The notes beneath the pieces are model-generated. The model did no database searches. It was not told where the DNA came from and saw only the letters and a list, made by a program, of their open reading frames with translations. The position numbers were made by a program, and so were the translations under genes. From the NCBI RefSeq assembly GCF_013377085.1, contig NZ_JACAAX010000034.1:1-64000 (forward strand): a DNA stretch of 64,000 nucleotides, read 5' to 3'. This document shows, in pieces, positions 40,220 through 48,075 of this stretch. This stretch comes from Rhodoplanes sp. GTDB taxonomy: Bacteria; Pseudomonadota; Alphaproteobacteria; Rhizobiales; Xanthobacteraceae. How positions within the stretch are numbered: the first letter of the stretch is position 1; each line of letters starts with the position of its first letter.

Positions 40220-42082
40220 TCAGCCGGGGTCGGTCCCGGCGGCCTCCTGCAGCTTGCGCCAGAGCGTGGTGCGGCTGATGCCGAGCGCCCGCGCCGCCTT
40301 GGCCTTGTTGCCCTCGGCGTTCGCCAGCGCCCGGCGGATGCGGTCGAGCTCGGTGTCGCTGCCGGATCGTTCCTCGCGCTCGCCGAGGATCTCGCGCACC
40401 AGCCGGTCGACGTCGGTGCGGTCGTTGCAGCGCACCGCGAAACGCTCGACGATGTTGCGGAGCTCACGGACATTGCCCGACCAGGGACAGCGGCGGAAGC
40501 CCGGGTGGGCGGCGACCGTCTCGATCAGCGGCTGCGGCAGGTCGGCTCGATAATGGCGGAGGAAACGGGCCACCAGGGCCGGCACGTCCTCGGAGCGGCG
40601 GCGCAGCGGCGGGATGTGCAGCTCGAGCACGCACAGCCGATAATAGAGGTCCTGGCGGAACCGGCCCTGCTTGACCATGTCCCACAGGTTCTTGTTGGTC
40701 GCGGCGACGACCCGCAGATCGACCGGCACGATGCGCTCGCCGCCGATGCGCAGCACCTCGTGCTCCTGCAGCACCCGCAGCAGCCGCGACTGGATGGTCT
40801 TGGGAACCTCGCCGATCTCGTCGAGGAAGATCGTGCCGCCGTGGCTGAGCTCGAACACGCCGGGCTTGCCGCCCTTTTTGGCGCCCGTGAAGGCGCCGTC
40901 CTCGTAGCCGAACAGCTCGCTCTCCAGCAGGCTGGCCGGCAGGGCGGCGCAGTTGATGGCGACGAAGGGCTTCTTGCGGCGACCGCTCTCGTTGTGGATG
41001 GCCTGGGCGAAGATCTCCTTGCCGGTGCCGGACTCGCCGAAGATGACGACGGCCGAGTTGGTGCGGGCGTATTGCCGCGCCTCCTTGATGGTGTCGGCCA
41101 TCAGGGGGCCGGCGTGGACGATGTCGGCGAATGTGTGCTTCGCCAGGAATCCCCGCTCCGACAGCCGGATCCGGATTTTCGTCTCGGCCTCGCGGACGCT
41201 GTCGACGTCCTGGAAGGTGGCGACCGCGCCGGTGACCTCGCCCTGGGTGACGATCGGCACCCGGTTGGTCAGCACCTTGGTGTGGCCGAAGACCTGGATC
41301 TGGTTCAGCTCGGGCTCGCCCTGCCGCAGGATGTCGTGCAGATGCGTGCCGGGGATGCAGTCCTTGGCCGGCCGGCCGATCACCTCCTGCCGGGCGATGC
41401 GGGTGATCTTCTCGGCGCTCGGATTGAACACCGTGACGGTGCCGTTGCGGTCCGTCGCGATGATGCCCTCGTGCGCGAAGCTGATGATGGTGTGCAGCTC
41501 CTCGGCCTTCTCGGCTTCCTTCTGCTTGGTCGCGCCGACCTTCACGGCAGTATCGAGCGCCCGCTGCACGCCGTCCTCGGAATACATGAACACCGCATGC
41601 ATGTCGCGCTGACGCGCCTTCTCGACCACCAGGCTGCCGCCCAGCACGGTACGGATGCCGCGGCCGATCAGGTCGTCGAGAACGACGTCGAGGTCGTTGA
41701 CGTCGTCGAAGGTCGTCTGCAGCAGCTCGATCGCGAGGACGCCGAGCACGCGGTCCAGGTAGGGGAGCCGGTTCCGATAGCTGACGACGCCCACCGGTCC
41801 GCGCGTCTTCACCTTGGCGAGCGCCAGCAGCAGGTCGAAGCCGGTCACCGAGATGCCGACCAGCGGCGTCTTCAGGTGCGGCGCGATGGTGGCGAGGTTG
41901 GCGCCGGCCGACAGGAAGATGTCGACCTCGCCGTTCGCCTCCATGGCCTTGGCCGCCGTCAGCGCGTCGCCGAGCAGCTTCTCGACGATGCAGATCTCGA
42001 TGCCGTCCGGCGCCCGGTAGTTCATTCGGCGGATGACGCCGCTGAGCTCCTTGTAGCTCATGATGGCGATCTTGACGGCCAT
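40220..42082 (-). CDS. Sigma-54-dependent activator with PrpR N-terminal domain
   Basis: 620 residues from ATG 42080-42082. Residues about 1-170 form a PrpR-N sensor domain ([36 protein letters not shown]), about 190-300 a PAS domain ([20 protein letters not shown]), about 320-555 the AAA+ domain with Walker [16 protein letters not shown], the sigma-54-contacting loop [20 protein letters not shown], Walker [14 protein letters not shown], and the C-terminal Fis-type helix-turn-helix [20 protein letters not shown]. PrpR-N domains bind small carboxylic acids or their derivatives (2-methylcitrate in PrpR). It lies upstream of and in line with the MFS-lyase operon and very probably activates its sigma-54 promoter. 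Confidence 0.95.
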
Positions 42083-42221
42083 GGCAGCCCTCGTGGCGGC
42101 GACAGAGTCCGGAGCGCCGCGGCCGGGGCGGGAGCCGGCGTCCGACCGGCGGATCATCCCCCAACGGGAGGTCGATTTCCAGGCCGCGGCACGCAGGCCG
42201 GCGCGGCGGCCGACGGGCGGC

Positions 42222-43039: not shown

Positions 43040-43807
43040 TCACAGGCCGCTGAACCAGTTGTAGCCGTAGGTCTCCCAGTAGCCGCCCGTAAATTCATCG
43101 CCGACCTCGATCGCGACAATGTGCTTGGGGTTCTTGAAGCCGAGCTTGGTCGGCACCCGCAGCTTCATCGGGAACCCGTAGTCGCGCGGCAGCGTCGCGC
43201 CGTCGAACCAGAAGGTGAGCTGGGTCTGCGGATGGCGCGCCGTCGCCATGTCGATCGAGGTGACGTAGTTGTCGGCGCAGCGGAACGTCACGTAGCGGGC
43301 GCGGGCGTCGGCGCCGATGCGGTCGAGAAAATCAGAGAAGCGCGCGCCCTCCCAGTGGCCGATGGCGCTCCAGCCCTCGATGCAGATATGGCGCGTGATC
43401 TGCGATACGCGGGGCAGGGCGCGCAGGCGGTCGAGCGTCCACGGCGGCGCCTCCTGCACGCGCCCGGCGACCTCCAGCGTGAAGCCGCCCGGATCGACCT
43501 CGGGCGAGCCGCCGCGGCGATAGAAGGCGTTGAACGGGAACGGCCGGGTGATCTCGGAGGCCTGGTACTCGCGGGCGAGCCGGCCGGGGCCGAACAGCCA
43601 GGCCTGGACCCGGTCGTTGAAGTCCGACATGGCGTCGAGTGCGCGCTCGGCCGAGGTGCCGTCGACGACGTCGCAGCCGGCGAGCAGCGTCAGCGTGCCG
43701 AGCCCGGCGGCCCGGCGCAGGAACAGCCGGCGGGTGGGAGCGTCGAGGCGGCCCGCGGCCTCGCGCAGGATCACGGGCGTGTCGGGATGCGGCGGACGGG
43801 ACGGCAT
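43040..43807 (-). CDS. Molybdopterin-dependent oxidoreductase of the sulfite-oxidase fold (MsrP-like)
   Basis: 255 residues from ATG 43805-43807. The N-terminus has a twin-arginine-like run RRLFLRRAAGLGTLTLLAGC that ends in a lipobox-like LAGC, so the protein is exported, possibly as a lipoprotein. The catalytic domain holds the molybdenum ligand Cys in RHICIEGWSAIGHWEG (about 121-136), followed by YVTFRCADNYVTSIDM, YGFPMKLRVPTKLGFKNPKH and the end GGYWETYGYNWFSG, all typical of SUOX-fold reductases such as MsrP (YedY). Members reduce sulfoxides or oxidise sulfite in the periplasm. The cytochrome b gene 28 bases upstream is the likely electron partner. It belongs to a stress-type ECF sigma gene set. 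Confidence 0.9.
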   Translation of the reverse strand: MPSRPPHPDTPVILREAAGRLDAPTRRLFLRRAAGLGTLTLLAGCDVVDGTSAERALDAMSDFNDRVQAWLFGPGRLAREYQASEITRPFPFNAFYRRGGSPEVDPGGFTLEVAGRVQEAPPWTLDRLRALPRVSQITRHICIEGWSAIGHWEGARFSDFLDRIGADARARYVTFRCADNYVTSIDMATARHPQTQLTFWFDGATLPRDYGFPMKLRVPTKLGFKNPKHIVAIEVGDEFTGGYWETYGYNWFSGL

Positions 43808-43835
43808 GGGAGTCCTCCGGTGGGGTGCGGCGCGG

Positions 43836-44456
43836 TCAGCGTCCGACCACCATGGCCTTGAGCGAGCGGGGCACCAGCAGCGCCATGGCGACATGCACGA
43901 GCAGGAACGTGACGATCGCGGCCATGGCGGCGAAATGGACCAGCCGGGCATTGTCGAAGTCGCCCATCAGCGCGGTCAGTCCGCCGAGCTGCACCGGCTT
44001 CCAGATCGCCAGGCCCGACAGGACGGCGAGCAGGCCGGCCAAAATCACGCCGAGATAGAGCAGCCGCTGCACGGCGTTGTAGACCGACAGATCGGCGTGG
44101 CCGAGCCGGCCGGACAGCGCATCGCGCAGATCGGCGAGCACGGCGCGCGGCGTGATCGGCAAGAGCTTCCTGCGGAACCGGCCCGAGACGATGCCGTAGG
44201 CCAGATAGACGAGGCCGTTGCCGGCGAGGAGCCACATCGCCGCGAAGTGCCAGCGCGTCGCGCCGCCGAGCCAGCCGCCGAGCGTGAGCGCGTCGGGGAT
44301 CGCCACCGGCAGGATCGGATAGGCATTGTGGATGGCGAGGCCGCTCATGATCATCACCGTCATGGCGAGGGCGTTGATCCAGTGCGTGACCCGCACGGTC
44401 AGCGGATGGATCGCGGGTCTGTGTCGCGCCGGGATCTCGATCAGGGCCGTCGACAT
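43836..44456 (-). CDS. Cytochrome b (di-heme b561/thiosulfate-reductase type)
   Basis: 206 residues with four to five membrane helices. Heme-ligand candidates are in IHPLTVRVTHWINALAM (about 17-33), RWHFAAMWLLAGNGLVYL (about 68-85), and ARLVHFAAMAAIVTFLLVHV (about 170-189). The family carries quinol electrons across the membrane to periplasmic reductases. It sits 28 bases before the molybdoprotein gene and 103 bases after the fasciclin gene, so it should feed electrons to the molybdoprotein, as MsrQ does for MsrP, although it is not an obvious MsrQ sequence. Confidence 0.9.
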   Translation of the reverse strand: MSTALIEIPARHRPAIHPLTVRVTHWINALAMTVMIMSGLAIHNAYPILPVAIPDALTLGGWLGGATRWHFAAMWLLAGNGLVYLAYGIVSGRFRRKLLPITPRAVLADLRDALSGRLGHADLSVYNAVQRLLYLGVILAGLLAVLSGLAIWKPVQLGGLTALMGDFDNARLVHFAAMAAIVTFLLVHVAMALLVPRSLKAMVVGR

Positions 44457-44559: not shown

Positions 44560-45141
44560 TCACATGGGCATCAGAACCGTGTCGACGACGTGGATGACGC
44601 CGTTCGACTGGTTGACGTCGGCGATCGTGATGGTCGCCTTGTTGCCCTTGGCGTCGGTCACCTGCAGCTTGTTGCGGCCGGCTTCCGTGACGGTGAGCTC
44701 GCCGCCCTGGACGGTCTTCAGCTCGGCCTTGCCGCCGTTGCGCTCGACCATGTCCATCAGCGCCTTGGCCGAGTAGTTTCCGGCGACGACGTGATAGGTG
44801 AGGACGCCGGTCAGCGTGCCCTTGTTCTCGGGCTTGAGCAGGGTCGGCACGGTGCCGGAGGGCAGCGCGTCGAAGGCCTTGTTCACCGGCGCGAACACGG
44901 TGAAAGGGCCCTTGCTCTGCAGCGTGTCGACGAGGCCGGCGGCCTTCACGGCGGCGACCAGGGTGGTGTGGTCCTTGGAGTTTACCGCGTTCTGCACGAT
45001 GTTCTTCGAGGGATACATCGGCGCGCCGCCGACCTCGACGGTCTTCTCCATGGGAGCCGCCGAGACGGCGAGGGTGGCGAGCGACGTACCGGCGAGCGCA
45101 AGGCCCACCGCGGCGGCGAACGCCGCGATCCGAATGGTCAT
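44560..45141 (-). CDS. Secreted fasciclin (FAS1) domain protein
   Basis: 193 residues. Residues 1-28 are a signal peptide (IAAFAAAVGLALAGTSLATLAVSAA). The single FAS1 domain (about 48-190) has the H1 box FTVFAPVNKAFDALPSGT, the YHVVAGNYSA motif, and the H2-like region ITIADVNQSNGVIHVVDTVLMP. FAS1 proteins are surface adhesins or envelope stress proteins. It is transcribed from a promoter-like element at 45215-45243 that resembles the one before the ECF sigma gene. In mycobacteria the SigK/RskA system controls the FAS1 proteins MPT70/MPT83, a parallel that supports functional linkage here. Confidence 0.94.
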   Translation of the reverse strand: MTIRIAAFAAAVGLALAGTSLATLAVSAAPMEKTVEVGGAPMYPSKNIVQNAVNSKDHTTLVAAVKAAGLVDTLQSKGPFTVFAPVNKAFDALPSGTVPTLLKPENKGTLTGVLTYHVVAGNYSAKALMDMVERNGGKAELKTVQGGELTVTEAGRNKLQVTDAKGNKATITIADVNQSNGVIHVVDTVLMPM

Positions 45142-45385: not shown

Positions 45386-45931
45386 TCAGGCCGCCAGATA
45401 GCGGATGTAGAGAAGGCCGCCGGTGCGGGTCTGCATCTGCGAATGCGTCCCGCCGGCGTGGGCGACCGTGAAGTCACCCGGCCCGAGCACATGCCCCTCG
45501 TGGACGAGGTCGCCCTCGATGATCAGGCATTCCTCGATGCGGTCGTGATGATGTTCGGGCACGATGGTGCCGGGTTGCATGCGCATCAGGAAGGATTCCG
45601 GCTCGCCACGGCCGTCGCGCGTCAGGATCTTCACCTCGAGCCCGGGCGCCCACGGCTCCCAGCCGCGATGATCGAAGCGGATCACCCGCAGATCGCTCGC
45701 CGATCCGTCCGGCTTGTCCATCGCGGCCGAAATCTTGTCCCACAGGCCGGGCGGCGGCGCCGCCTCCGGCGCCGAGAGCGCCAGCGGCGCGACGCGCCGC
45801 TCCCAGGTCTCGATCTCCTGGTCGAGCGCGGCATCGCGGCGGCGACGGCGATCGATCGCCTCGCGGTCCGCCGCGTCGAGCGCGCCGAGGGCATAGAGGA
45901 CGATGTCGAGATCGGCCGGCATGGGGTTCAT
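45386..45931 (-). CDS. Soluble anti-sigma factor: RskA-like N-terminus fused to a ChrR-like cupin
   Basis: 181 residues from ATG 45929-45931, overlapping the sigma stop (ATGA). Residues about 5-75 (LDIVLYALGALDAADREAID, ETWERRVAPLAL, PPPGLWDKISAAM) resemble the sigma-binding part of RskA-type anti-sigma factors, with no HxxxCxxC zinc motif of ChrR/ZAS proteins. Residues about 85-180 form a cupin with metal-binding pattern PEHHHDRIEECLIIEGDL and a later THSQMQ, as in ChrR's C-terminal sensor. There is no membrane segment, unlike RskA. The cupin should sense a cytoplasmic signal (metal, oxidant or small molecule) and release the sigma factor. Confidence 0.85.
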   Translation of the reverse strand: MNPMPADLDIVLYALGALDAADREAIDRRRRRDAALDQEIETWERRVAPLALSAPEAAPPPGLWDKISAAMDKPDGSASDLRVIRFDHRGWEPWAPGLEVKILTRDGRGEPESFLMRMQPGTIVPEHHHDRIEECLIIEGDLVHEGHVLGPGDFTVAHAGGTHSQMQTRTGGLLYIRYLAA

Positions 45932-46533
45932 TGCTCGAGGCATGTCTTCAGCCGCGCAGCGCCGCGTCGCGCCCAGGACTTCACGGTTCCGGCCGGCACG
46001 CGCATCGAGGCCGCGATCTCGTCATGCGTGAATCCGTGCAGGAAGCCGAGCAGAACCACCTTTAGTTGCGATTTGCTGAGCGTGCCGATGCAGCGCATCA
46101 GATCGGTTCGCTCGTTGAGCGTCGCCGCGGTAGCGGCCAGCGCGTCGGCATGCTCGGTGATGTCCTCGTGGGTGACGCGATCGCGATGATAGCGGTCGAT
46201 CGCCACATTGCGCAGGATCTGCACCAGCCACGGCATCGGCGGCCCGCGCTCGGGATCGTACAGGCGGGCCTTGCTCCAGATGCGGAGATAGGCCTCCTGC
46301 AGGGCGTCCTCGGCGGCGTCGCGGCGCTTGAGCAGCAGCAGCGCGATGCCGAACAGCTTCGGGCTGGTCGCGTCGTAGAGAGCCTTGAAGGCGATCTGAT
46401 CGCCGGCGGCGGTGGCGACCAGAAGCGCGCCGAAATCGGGCGCCGCGGTCGATTGCCGTGCGCCGGCAGGCGTTCCTTGGCTCGGCGCGACTCGTGCGGC
46501 CGCCAGCGGGGTGTTGGAGTTGGCTGCGCTCAC
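45928..46533 (-). CDS. ECF RNA polymerase sigma factor (SigK/ECF19-like)
   Basis: 201 residues with the start at GTG 46531-46533, preceded by GGAGGGG; the frame is open to an ATG at 46611, which would give 227 residues. Region 2 is FKALYDATSPKLFGIALLLL with DAAEDALQEAYLRIW and WLVQILRNVAIDRYHR; region 4 is LSKSQLKVVLLGFLHGFTHD with AGTVKSWARRGAARL. The region 2 sequence looks most like SigK-type factors that pair with RskA anti-sigmas. Its stop overlaps the anti-sigma start. Likely targets are itself and the fasciclin-cytochrome-molybdoprotein genes directly downstream. Confidence 0.9.
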   Translation of the reverse strand: MSAANSNTPLAAARVAPSQGTPAGARQSTAAPDFGALLVATAAGDQIAFKALYDATSPKLFGIALLLLKRRDAAEDALQEAYLRIWSKARLYDPERGPPMPWLVQILRNVAIDRYHRDRVTHEDITEHADALAATAATLNERTDLMRCIGTLSKSQLKVVLLGFLHGFTHDEIAASMRVPAGTVKSWARRGAARLKTCLEQ

Positions 46534-46708
46534 CGCCCCTCCATGGGACCGCAAACACCGAGCGCCGGAACCGCCTCGGTGGTCGATCGAAAGAGCGCGC
46601 ATCCATATCATGGCACTTCCGTCATGTCATCGGCAGCACGGCGTCGGCGCCGGTTGCCGAGCGGGGGCGACCCAGGAGCGTCACAAAATTCGCATCACCA
46701 TCCCTTCC

Positions 46709-46737
46709 AATACCGGCTGGGGCGGCACTTGGATGCA
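46709..46737 (-). promoter_or_regulatory. Candidate autoregulated ECF-sigma promoter
   Basis: Minus strand TGCATCC, 16 bases, GGTATTGG, upstream of the sigma gene. Spacing and the GGTAT core match the element before the fasciclin gene. The leader to the chosen GTG start would be about 170 bases, or about 90 to the upstream ATG. Confidence 0.5.
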
Positions 46738-46925: not shown

Positions 46926-47858
46926 TCAGGGTATTGCGTCGAACAGCAGGTGGTTGGTGTTGATGACGGACATCTGCGCGATGTCGTCCTCCTTGACGCC
47001 GCGCTTGCCCAGCTCGCCGAAGAACTCGCGCAGCGCCTCGCCGACCGGCGGGGAGAAGATCTGGCCGACATCGGTCGATAGGATCACGCCTTGCGGACCG
47101 ACCGCCTCGATGACGCCGAGATACTGCTCGTAGGTGAGGTGGTCCATCGCCAGGTTGACGAAGGCGAGCTCGCTGTAGGCGCCGTACTCTTTCCACATGC
47201 GCGCCATCGTCGCCGGATCGAGCTCGGTCGATTGGAACAGCGGGTGGGTGAGGATGATGCGGCGCACGCCGGCTTTTCGCGCGGCCTTGACGACGATCTC
47301 GGTCTCGTTGCGGTCGAGATGCCCGGTCGCCAGCACGAGATCGTTGTCGGCGATCACCTTCAGGGCGCGCTCGACGGCGGCCATCTTGTCGGCGTCGTCG
47401 GCCCGCAGCGTATAGCCGGTGCCTTCGGCGTAGAATCGGGTGTGCTCGGCCTTGACGCCCCAGGCGGTCGACAGATCGCGCCGGCCGTAGCAGCGCAGAT
47501 GCGCCTCGCAGCACAAGGTCGGCATCCACACCACGAAGCGGTCCTTGTCGGGGTCGGCTGCGGTGACGTCCTTCTTCCAGCCCGACAACGCGGCGCGCAC
47601 GCCATGATCGTCGACGCCACCGCAACCGAAGTTGAGCGCCACCGAGCCGACCAGCGCCACCTCGTCGTCGTCGCGTCGCAACTGGCTGACCTGCCCGGTG
47701 GTCGGCTGGAAGTGGTTCTTCATCACCACGCCGAACCCCTCGCGACGCGCCTCCTCGGCGAGCGTGCCCGCGCTGTATTTGCGGCGCAGGAATTCCGGGC
47801 CGATATGCACATGCATGTCGATCACGCGTTTCGATCCGACACGGGGCAGCGCTTTCAT
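46926..47858 (-). CDS. DUF6282-like amidohydrolase-fold protein
   Basis: 310 residues from ATG 47856-47858 (AAAGGATG upstream); an upstream in-frame start at 47903 lacks a site. The N-terminus VIDMHVHIGPEFLRRKYSAG carries the HxH metal-binding pair typical of amidohydrolase-fold enzymes; later histidines are in GFGVVMKNHFQPTTG, LATGHLDRNE and RIILTHPLFQST, and Asp in VILSTDVGQIFSPP could be the catalytic acid. This is the pattern of the family called DUF6282, related to TIM-barrel hydrolases. Substrate unknown. A divergent MFS permease gene begins about 515 bases away, suggesting the pair could handle one compound. Confidence 0.8.
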   Translation of the reverse strand: MKALPRVGSKRVIDMHVHIGPEFLRRKYSAGTLAEEARREGFGVVMKNHFQPTTGQVSQLRRDDDEVALVGSVALNFGCGGVDDHGVRAALSGWKKDVTAADPDKDRFVVWMPTLCCEAHLRCYGRRDLSTAWGVKAEHTRFYAEGTGYTLRADDADKMAAVERALKVIADNDLVLATGHLDRNETEIVVKAARKAGVRRIILTHPLFQSTELDPATMARMWKEYGAYSELAFVNLAMDHLTYEQYLGVIEAVGPQGVILSTDVGQIFSPPVGEALREFFGELGKRGVKEDDIAQMSVINTNHLLFDAIP

Positions 47859-47889
47859 CTCGCATCCTTTCACGGCCACGCCGGCCGTC

Positions 47890-48075
47890 AGTCGATCAGG
47901 CACTCGGCTCTGATTTCAATGGCGATCCCGAACCACAGTTCGGCGACGCTGGCCGTGCGTGCTGCACGCGTTCCGATCCCGAACCGAACAGCGCCAGGAT
48001 GAGCACCGGGACATCCGGAGGCGCGGGCGGGACCGCGCCGAGCTCCTGCAGGCCGGCCTCGATGGTCACAAACGG
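47890..48075 (-). pseudogene. Possible alpha/beta-hydrolase C-terminal remnant
   Basis: A frame reading VTIEAGLQELGAVPPAPPDV then PVLILALFGSGSE, followed after a frame change by VAELWFGIAIEIRAE, looks like protein sequence but has no start codon and needs a frameshift. The first part resembles the strand before the catalytic acid of alpha/beta hydrolases. It could be the decayed end of such a gene. Confidence 0.3.

Follow-up and report, generated by a model that had tools for sequence, protein, structure and literature searches.

A predicted soluble anti-sigma factor pairing an RskA-type domain with a ChrR-type cupin beside a SigK-like sigma gene in Rhodoplanes sp.

What kind of inhibitor governs a SigK-like sigma factor whose partner gene encodes no recognizable membrane protein? 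The question is raised by a gene pair at positions 45,386 to 46,533 of a 64,000-nucleotide stretch of Rhodoplanes sp. DNA (NCBI contig NZ_JACAAX010000034.1, positions 1 to 64,000; hereafter, the window). An initial annotation, made from the letters alone, proposed that an extracytoplasmic function (ECF) sigma factor of the SigK kind is coupled by an ATGA overlap to an anti-sigma factor with an RskA-like N-terminus, no membrane helix, no zinc motif, and a C-terminal cupin of the ChrR type whose metal ligands are three histidines and a glutamate. The explanation that best fits the analysis described here is a SigK-class sigma factor under a soluble inhibitor that combines an RskA-type domain with a metal cupin, one sensor having been swapped for another. 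As judged from the sequences, this reading has a probability of roughly 0.55.

The sigma gene (45928..46533, minus strand) starts at a GTG at 46533, with GGAGGGG immediately upstream, and encodes 201 residues; an alternative ATG at 46611 would yield a protein of 227 residues. Its stop codon overlaps the start of the anti-sigma gene in an ATGA at 45928-45931, as had been proposed. The protein contains Sigma70_r2 (55.9 bits) and r4_2 (42 bits) domains. The SigK model PRK09646 is its third-ranked match, at 123 bits against a cut-off of 226, and the closest solved structure is SigK (4nqw_A, 72.1 bits), followed by R. sphaeroides RpoE (62.9 bits). Both SigK cysteines of 4nqw align with cysteines in the window protein. 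This pair (residues 133 and 183) is reported in 94% of ECF18 and 56% of ECF19 members, and in less than 2% of other families (PMC7509140). The sub-cut-off PRK09646 score, the best structural match, and the cysteine pair thus agree with the SigK-like assignment.

The adjoining gene (45386..45931, minus strand) encodes a predicted soluble anti-sigma factor of 181 residues. Its zinc-less anti-sigma domain (residues 1-78; 45698..45931, minus strand), which is delineated by a match to the model NF052375, a phylogenetic tree, and the helices of a structural model, is followed by a presumed sensor, a Cupin_7 domain (residues 83-174; 45410..45685, minus strand) that scores 50.5 bits against a Pfam cut-off of 27 and is modeled as beta strands. 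The presumed metal ligands fall within 45443..45553 (minus strand): H127 (45551-45553), H129 (45545-45547), E133 (45533-45535), and H163 (45443-45445). Their spacing, 2/6/36, is identical to that in ChrR, where the ligands are reported as residues 141, 143, 147, and 177 (PMC6852236), and all four are invariant in the 12 proteins of the family alignment (A3) discussed below. The protein contains no strongly hydrophobic 19-residue window, its maximum being 1.03 compared with at least 1.66 in 25 RskA-type comparators, and it has no Pfam match to RskA_C. The zinc motif H-x3-C-x2-C is also missing, both from the window protein and from every other row of A3. On the cupin and its ligands, the lack of a membrane helix, and the lack of a zinc motif, the initial annotation was therefore right.

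The RskA likeness of the N-terminus, as read from the sequences, is clear, though not strong. Pfam RskA_N gives a sub-threshold match to residues 12-32 (15.7 bits; cut-off 27) and is found in 1 of the 12 family members. NF052375, an NCBIfam model named "anti-sigma factor," matches residues 12-94 at 45.9 bits (E 6.6e-12; whole-protein cut-off 100) and is found in 11 of the 12. This model is of the RskA kind, because two membrane RskA-type proteins match it end to end (L018, 112.1 bits; a Microvirga protein, 79.8 bits); it is not exclusive to that kind, since a genuine zinc ChrR scores 32.6 bits with its N-terminus as well. The ChrR models are confined to the cupin part, within residues 85-165 (TIGR02451, 33.9 bits vs a cut-off of 124.5; NF051881, 32 vs 300 bits). 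For comparison, a zinc ChrR encoded in the same genome scores 203.3 bits with TIGR02451, above the cut-off, and 221.7 bits with NF051881, below it. Profile models thus split the protein at the domain border. Of what had been anticipated from such models, a cupin C-terminal to an RskA-like segment is seen, a significant Pfam RskA match is not, and neither ChrR model extends into the N-terminus.

An AlphaFold single-chain model built from two sequences (mean predicted local distance difference test score, pLDDT, 70.4) has a beta-rich C-terminal half and places helices of the anti-sigma domain at residues 8-14, 20-32, 34-52, and 63-71; the fourth is uncertain, as pLDDT is below 50 at residues 1-4 and 52-89. 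The best fold match of the model is ChrR (2q1z), spanning both domains (E 2.2e-9). When solved structures were searched with the N-terminus alone, neither RskA nor ChrR was found.

Phylogenetic trees address the class of each half. From 81 listed sigma open reading frames (ORFs), 10 fusion, 25 RskA-type, and 8 ChrR-type loci were retained. Repeats of one locus under several identifiers, second sigma genes, loci for which no partner was paired (e.g., L034), and loci with an unusable anti-sigma partner ORF (e.g., L029, L082, L110, and L118) were excluded, and G1188 (L129), which has the zinc motif, was grouped with the ChrR type. In the best tree of 43 sigma factors, the 10 fusion partners lie with the 25 RskA-type partners, apart from the 8 ChrR-type partners (support 97/92). 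A tree of 45 anti-sigma domains, for which the software warned of few columns, long branches, and a bootstrap that had not settled, places the 12 family members among the 25 RskA-type domains, again apart from the 8 ChrR-type domains (98/94). The missing motif and this separate clade rule out reading the N-terminus as a zinc domain. The cysteine test does not depend on any tree: 9 of 11 fusion partners, all 26 RskA partners, and none of the 8 ChrR partners have the SigK pair. The profile split, both trees, and the cysteine pair together support the idea, put forward at the outset, that an RskA-type binding module and a ChrR-type sensor domain are joined in a soluble protein whose partner is of the SigK class.

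The same cysteines suggest an alternative in which the SigK cysteine pair of the sigma factor itself does the redox sensing and the cupin has survived as a structural leftover. The pair is indeed present in most partners, that of the window included, and such a disulphide is reported to govern SigK activity (PMC8103513). However, four ligands invariant across 12 diverse members are not expected of a leftover, and the 2 partners (of 11) that lack the cysteines retain the cupin. This alternative is very unlikely.

If an RskA-type domain has been joined to a cupin, does the combination recur? A census, which the initial annotation had called for, reveals 10 intact alphaproteobacterial loci, encoding 12 proteins, plus two fragments; profiles grown from the window protein led to the layout in Rhodopseudomonas sp. 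MAG (metagenome-assembled genome) Cfx3-05 (L009/L067), among other genomes. With the window's own genome and the fragments counted, the layout occurs in at least 2 of 296 genomes in the family search, at least 5 of 397 in the order search, and at least 7 of 385 in the class search; in each phylum search it occurs in at least 1 of 398, the window's own. These counts are lower bounds, as the samples overlap, the queries and thresholds differ, and at most 8-11 candidates were scored per genome. Among five genomes of the same genus, four gave no match and one gave a weak N-terminal match. A contig scan with a two-row profile returned the Rhodopseudomonas locus alone, so the census rests on the sampled genomes, and a plasmid search gave three records, none reaching 80% query coverage. 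The proteins of A3 come from the 10 intact loci, are 27-40% identical to the window protein, and all contain Cupin_7; the fragments L101 and L128 were left out. In two genomes, tandem anti-sigma-cupin genes stand behind a single sigma gene (L098:5281-6496 and L124:8049-9314). On a short contig of an incomplete genome (L101:1-308), a fasciclin-antisense-like sequence runs into sigma region 4, possibly through an assembly join.

Two plasmid-encoded proteins resemble the family. Leisingera caerulea WP_259972736.1, like the window protein, lacks H-x3-C-x2-C, contains Cupin_7, and adjoins an ECF sigma gene, and it is likely a family member. Unlike in the window protein, its N-terminus matches no anti-sigma model, its sigma factor lacks the cysteine pair, and an RskA_C protein is encoded upstream. 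The latter (L134:3570-5429), whose gene immediately precedes those for the sigma factor and the cupin anti-sigma factor, has a hydrophobic stretch and RskA_C, with no recognised anti-sigma domain; it might be what is left of a membrane inhibitor since replaced, or else a second component. Nostoc linckia BAY80379.1, annotated "anti-ECFsigma factor, ChrR," likewise lacks H-x3-C-x2-C, contains Cupin_7, and adjoins an ECF sigma gene. It differs from the window protein in a zf-HC2 match barely above cut-off (22.5 vs 22.2 bits) and in its Ferritin_2 neighbour, and it lies outside the rows of the trees. Ferritin_2/DUF4439 genes stand beside cupin anti-sigma genes at L123:5763-6362, L125:8659-9961, L127:6074-6676, and, in Nostoc, L135:3903-4562, which suggests a second conserved target.

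The number of origins of the fusion depends on the tree. In the sigma tree, the 10 partners need three label changes, and a single clade is not rejected (p 0.186). In the anti-sigma tree, there are seven label changes, of which the starred branches force one, and a single clade is weakly rejected (p 0.030).

Which genes might the sigma factor serve? Judging from gene content and order, its likely targets are three genes that follow the pair on the same strand. They encode a fasciclin-domain protein (44560..45141, minus strand; PF02469, 120.7 bits), a cytochrome b561-type membrane protein (43836..44456, minus strand; PF01292, 81.5 bits), and an MsrP/SorA-like molybdopterin oxidoreductase (43040..43951, minus strand; PF00174, 95.5 bits). 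The oxidoreductase scores 68.3 vs 207 bits with the MsrP model and 46.9 vs 600 bits with the SorA model; its true start is probably near 43807, because alignments with most homologues begin around residue 45-57. In L099, which belongs to a different family of the same order, the window's five genes recur in a permuted order (fasciclin, cytochrome, oxidoreductase, sigma, anti-sigma), with identities to their window counterparts of 76% for fasciclin, 65% for the cytochrome, and 71% for the oxidoreductase. On a plasmid of Microvirga sp. VF16, a fasciclin/cytochrome/oxidoreductase operon (69, 75, and 76% identical, respectively) lies one opposite-strand gene away from genes for a SigK-like sigma factor and a membrane RskA (RskA_C, 73.9 bits). 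Fasciclin is encoded beside 9 of 20 further cytochrome-oxidoreductase stretches, of which 19 come from genomes of the family and one from the window's own genome. Oxidoreductase identity to the window is 46-61% in these 20 stretches vs 71-76% in L099 and Microvirga, and none of the five same-genus genomes has an oxidoreductase homologue at E 1e-60; for both reasons, the cassette has likely been transferred between genomes. Elsewhere in the window's own genome, a distant cytochrome b561-oxidoreductase pair (L160:5067-6659; oxidoreductase 46-47%) has no adjoining sigma or fasciclin gene. A gene for a PrpR_N/PAS/sigma-54 activator/Fis-type regulator (window 40220-42157, minus strand) near the oxidoreductase operon is probably unrelated.

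A putative autoregulatory promoter precedes the sigma gene at 46711..46736 (minus strand), with GCATCC at 46731-46736 and CGGTA at 46711-46715. The corresponding pattern, GCATCC[A/G]-N14-17-GTA, is present in 6 of 19 upstream regions (shuffled mean 0.03), a count that is biased because the pattern was derived from those regions. Outside the discovery set, it occurs in 4 of 6 regions, those before the Microvirga sigma and fasciclin genes and the Leisingera sigma and HupE genes. It is found at 2 of 20 further operon starts, or 3 of 23 when Microvirga, L099, and the window are included (shuffled mean 0.05, with none of 300 shuffles reaching that count), and also elsewhere in the 20 operon stretches, partly within genes. 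Before sigma genes, it appears in 3 of 11 regions from fusion loci, 2 of 25 from RskA-type loci, and 0 of 12 from ChrR-type loci, sets that take in some second sigma genes of those loci. The narrower pattern GCATCCA-N13-16-CGGTA occurs once in the 6.48-Mb genome, before the window sigma gene; a reversed control pattern also occurs once. One match on the Microvirga plasmid (L136:1252, minus strand) lies about 150 bases before a divergent FAD (flavin adenine dinucleotide)-dependent monooxygenase gene, a possible extra target. Upstream of the window sigma gene, on the same strand, a gene at 46926-47903 (minus strand) encodes a DUF6282 protein (150.6 bits).

Several results weigh against a SigK-class sigma factor under a hybrid inhibitor with these targets. 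With regard to class, the sigma data do not reject a tree in which the fusion partners group with ChrR partners (p 0.165, or 0.137 once the two longest rows are removed). In addition, the comparators were retrieved by their resemblance to the window protein, through the N-terminus for RskA types and through the cupin for ChrR types, a choice that biases the trees toward a split. The structural model was built from two sequences, and as a whole it superimposes poorly on ChrR (template modeling score 0.43; root-mean-square deviation 16.4). In a comparison with solved structures, the family profile scores higher on ChrR (44.8 bits, covering residues 7-167) than on RskA (16.1 bits, E 0.063). The unrejected tree and the ChrR alignment, together with ChrR as the best fold match, are what would be seen if the protein were simply a ChrR that had lost its zinc ligands by descent. 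An existing ChrR-clade anti-sigma factor, L033:1396-2645, has in fact lost the zinc cysteines while keeping the cupin ligands and a ChrR-type sigma partner. Yet L033 stays within the ChrR clade, indicating that zinc loss alone moves no protein to the RskA side, whereas the window protein lies outside that clade. Forcing the fusion and ChrR anti-sigma domains together is barely rejected (approximately unbiased test, p 0.049), and no ChrR partner carries the sigma cysteine pair. As a test of an ECF11-type partner, the 97/92 separation from ChrR partners and the join at p 0.165/0.137 stand beside a cysteine pair that is contrary to ECF11. Descent from ChrR by zinc loss is the least likely of the alternatives considered here.

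The remaining contrary results concern the targets. A well-spaced motif was sought before the window fasciclin gene and none was found, there being just a mis-spaced resemblance; the upstream region of the L099 fasciclin gene fails the pattern too. Control of the window fasciclin gene would therefore need either read-through or a divergent site. The gap between the anti-sigma gene and the fasciclin gene is 244 bases, and since a consensus scan found no terminator-like site in it, read-through is the likelier route. A sigma/anti-sigma pair is beside none of the 20 further cytochrome-oxidoreductase copies, although in L148 a sigma-like ORF (27%) lies about 1 kb off, and in two of three plasmid records examined for the oxidoreductase, those of Rahnella and Paraburkholderia, both sigma and fasciclin are missing within 5 kb of it. 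Finally, L099 is the lone relative examined that has the same targets; the other fusion loci stand beside Ferritin_2 (L123, L125, and L127), DUF4331 (L124), or nothing recognised. It could be, then, that the gene pair and the fasciclin operon are adjacent by chance, with the regulon elsewhere in the genome, as the missing motif, the 244-base gap, and the usual absence of such regulators beside the cytochrome-oxidoreductase pair would allow. This is quite unlikely, however, given that the five genes stand together again in L099 in another order and that the operon is again near a SigK-type pair, with the motif, in Microvirga.

How would a hybrid inhibitor of this kind work? In the mechanism we propose, the SigK-class sigma factor would be kept inactive in the cytoplasm by the two-domain protein, whose N-terminal RskA-type helical domain would grip it without zinc, while the ChrR-type cupin would bind metal through H127, H129, E133, and H163. 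The cupin would sense some reactive species, with singlet oxygen or an organic hydroperoxide as the likeliest candidates, and its damage or rearrangement would free the sigma factor or expose the inhibitor to proteolysis. The freed sigma factor would then transcribe its own operon from the GCATCC[A/G]-N14-17-GTA promoter, as well as the fasciclin, cytochrome b561, and molybdopterin oxidoreductase genes, whose products may protect or repair the cell envelope. We infer that the inhibitor originated when an RskA-type protein exchanged its membrane and periplasmic half for a cupin, with the regulon and promoter class retained.

Singlet oxygen or an organic peroxide is a first guess at the signal, made because of the role of the ChrR cupin, a related pair in R. 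capsulatus, the regulons that contain fasciclin, and the presence of reaction-centre genes. R. sphaeroides ChrR is reported to inhibit even without its cupin, whereas the response to singlet oxygen needs the cupin as well as Glu147 and His177 (PMC6852236). In R. capsulatus, a SigK/RskA-like pair stands in for RpoE/ChrR, and singlet oxygen induces both its genes (log2 3.7 and 3.4), as it does a fasciclin gene from the RpoE regulon of R. sphaeroides (PMC7074977). An Azospirillum fasciclin is cited as being controlled by RpoE-ChrR (PMC10949492). The window genome itself contains two photosynthetic reaction-centre genes and a separate zinc ChrR gene adjoining its own sigma gene (L002).

The same hybrid might nevertheless answer to another input, with its cupin binding a metabolite, a sulfur compound, or a metal ion and having no part in reactive-oxygen sensing. 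Small-ligand binding is common among cupins, a point in favor of this possibility. Furthermore, the Leisingera copy lies near an efflux cluster, HupE, and mntR; the Rhodopseudomonas copy appears, from a reading of the sequence, to lie near a TauE/SafE-like permease gene and a rhodanese-like gene; and the window oxidoreductase also resembles sulfite dehydrogenases, as its SorA score indicates. Sulfite oxidation in Sinorhizobium is reported to be controlled by an ECF26 pair (PMC3511301). A sulfite signal is kept as a rival but ranks below the preferred reading, as the ECF26 anti-sigma factors of S. meliloti are reported to be membrane proteins (PMC6180224). ChrR, which carries the same type of cupin on an anti-sigma domain, answers to singlet oxygen and organic peroxide, and fasciclin genes occur in photo-oxidative regulons; another input is thus somewhat unlikely, and sensing of a reactive species by the metal cupin is the reading we prefer.

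If so, the locus is a tangible example of one sensor replacing another on a conserved ECF regulon, in which a membrane version (Microvirga) and a soluble version (the window and L099) have the same target operon nearby. At slightly less than even odds, a SigK-type regulon has been re-plugged from a membrane RskA to a soluble metal-cupin sensor, perhaps more than once, with the sigma class, promoter, and operon kept. In that case, SigK/RskA-like and RpoE/ChrR-like systems would be able to replace each other as front ends of the response to photo-oxidative envelope stress, and a signal would be suggested for the SigK class. What stimulates SigK-RskA systems has been called obscure (PMC9861118); a natural hybrid with a ChrR cupin leads to a guess, singlet oxygen or organic peroxide, that is testable in harmless bacteria. 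Builders of sigma-factor switches may also benefit from halves that can be swapped.

Soluble anti-sigma domains without zinc are already known, about 72% of the soluble ones having the zinc motif (PMC7406223); the word cupin was not found in the main text of that study. The cupin anti-sigma factors described in PMC8999054 and PMC6852236 are zinc ChrR. A literature search of incomplete coverage found no work joining RskA, cupin, anti-sigma, and ECF sigma factor. Bradyrhizobium EcfF-OsrA was considered as a counterpart and ruled out, since OsrA is reported to be a DUF1109 protein with six helices that belongs to group 16 (PMC3420878).

Among known systems, R. sphaeroides ChrR, the partner of an ECF11 sigma factor (2q1z), shares with the window protein a soluble anti-sigma domain followed by a cupin, the ligand spacing, an operon with the sigma gene, and the best fold match. 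In contrast to ChrR, the window protein has no zinc site, its SigK-like partner has the cysteine pair, and its anti-sigma domain falls with the RskA types. The R. capsulatus pair RCAP_rcc00699/rcc00698 is, like that of the window, a SigK/RskA-like pair in an alphaproteobacterium, and one reported to be singlet-oxygen induced; its anti-sigma factor is 25% identical to RskA and 13% to ChrR (PMC7074977). RskA (4nqw) and the alphaproteobacterial RskA types share with the window protein a zinc-less anti-sigma domain and a SigK-class partner with the cysteine pair, and the Microvirga RskA-type protein WP_203447480.1 also has the same operon nearby and the same motif. The window protein differs from these RskA types in that a cupin stands in place of the membrane helix and RskA_C.

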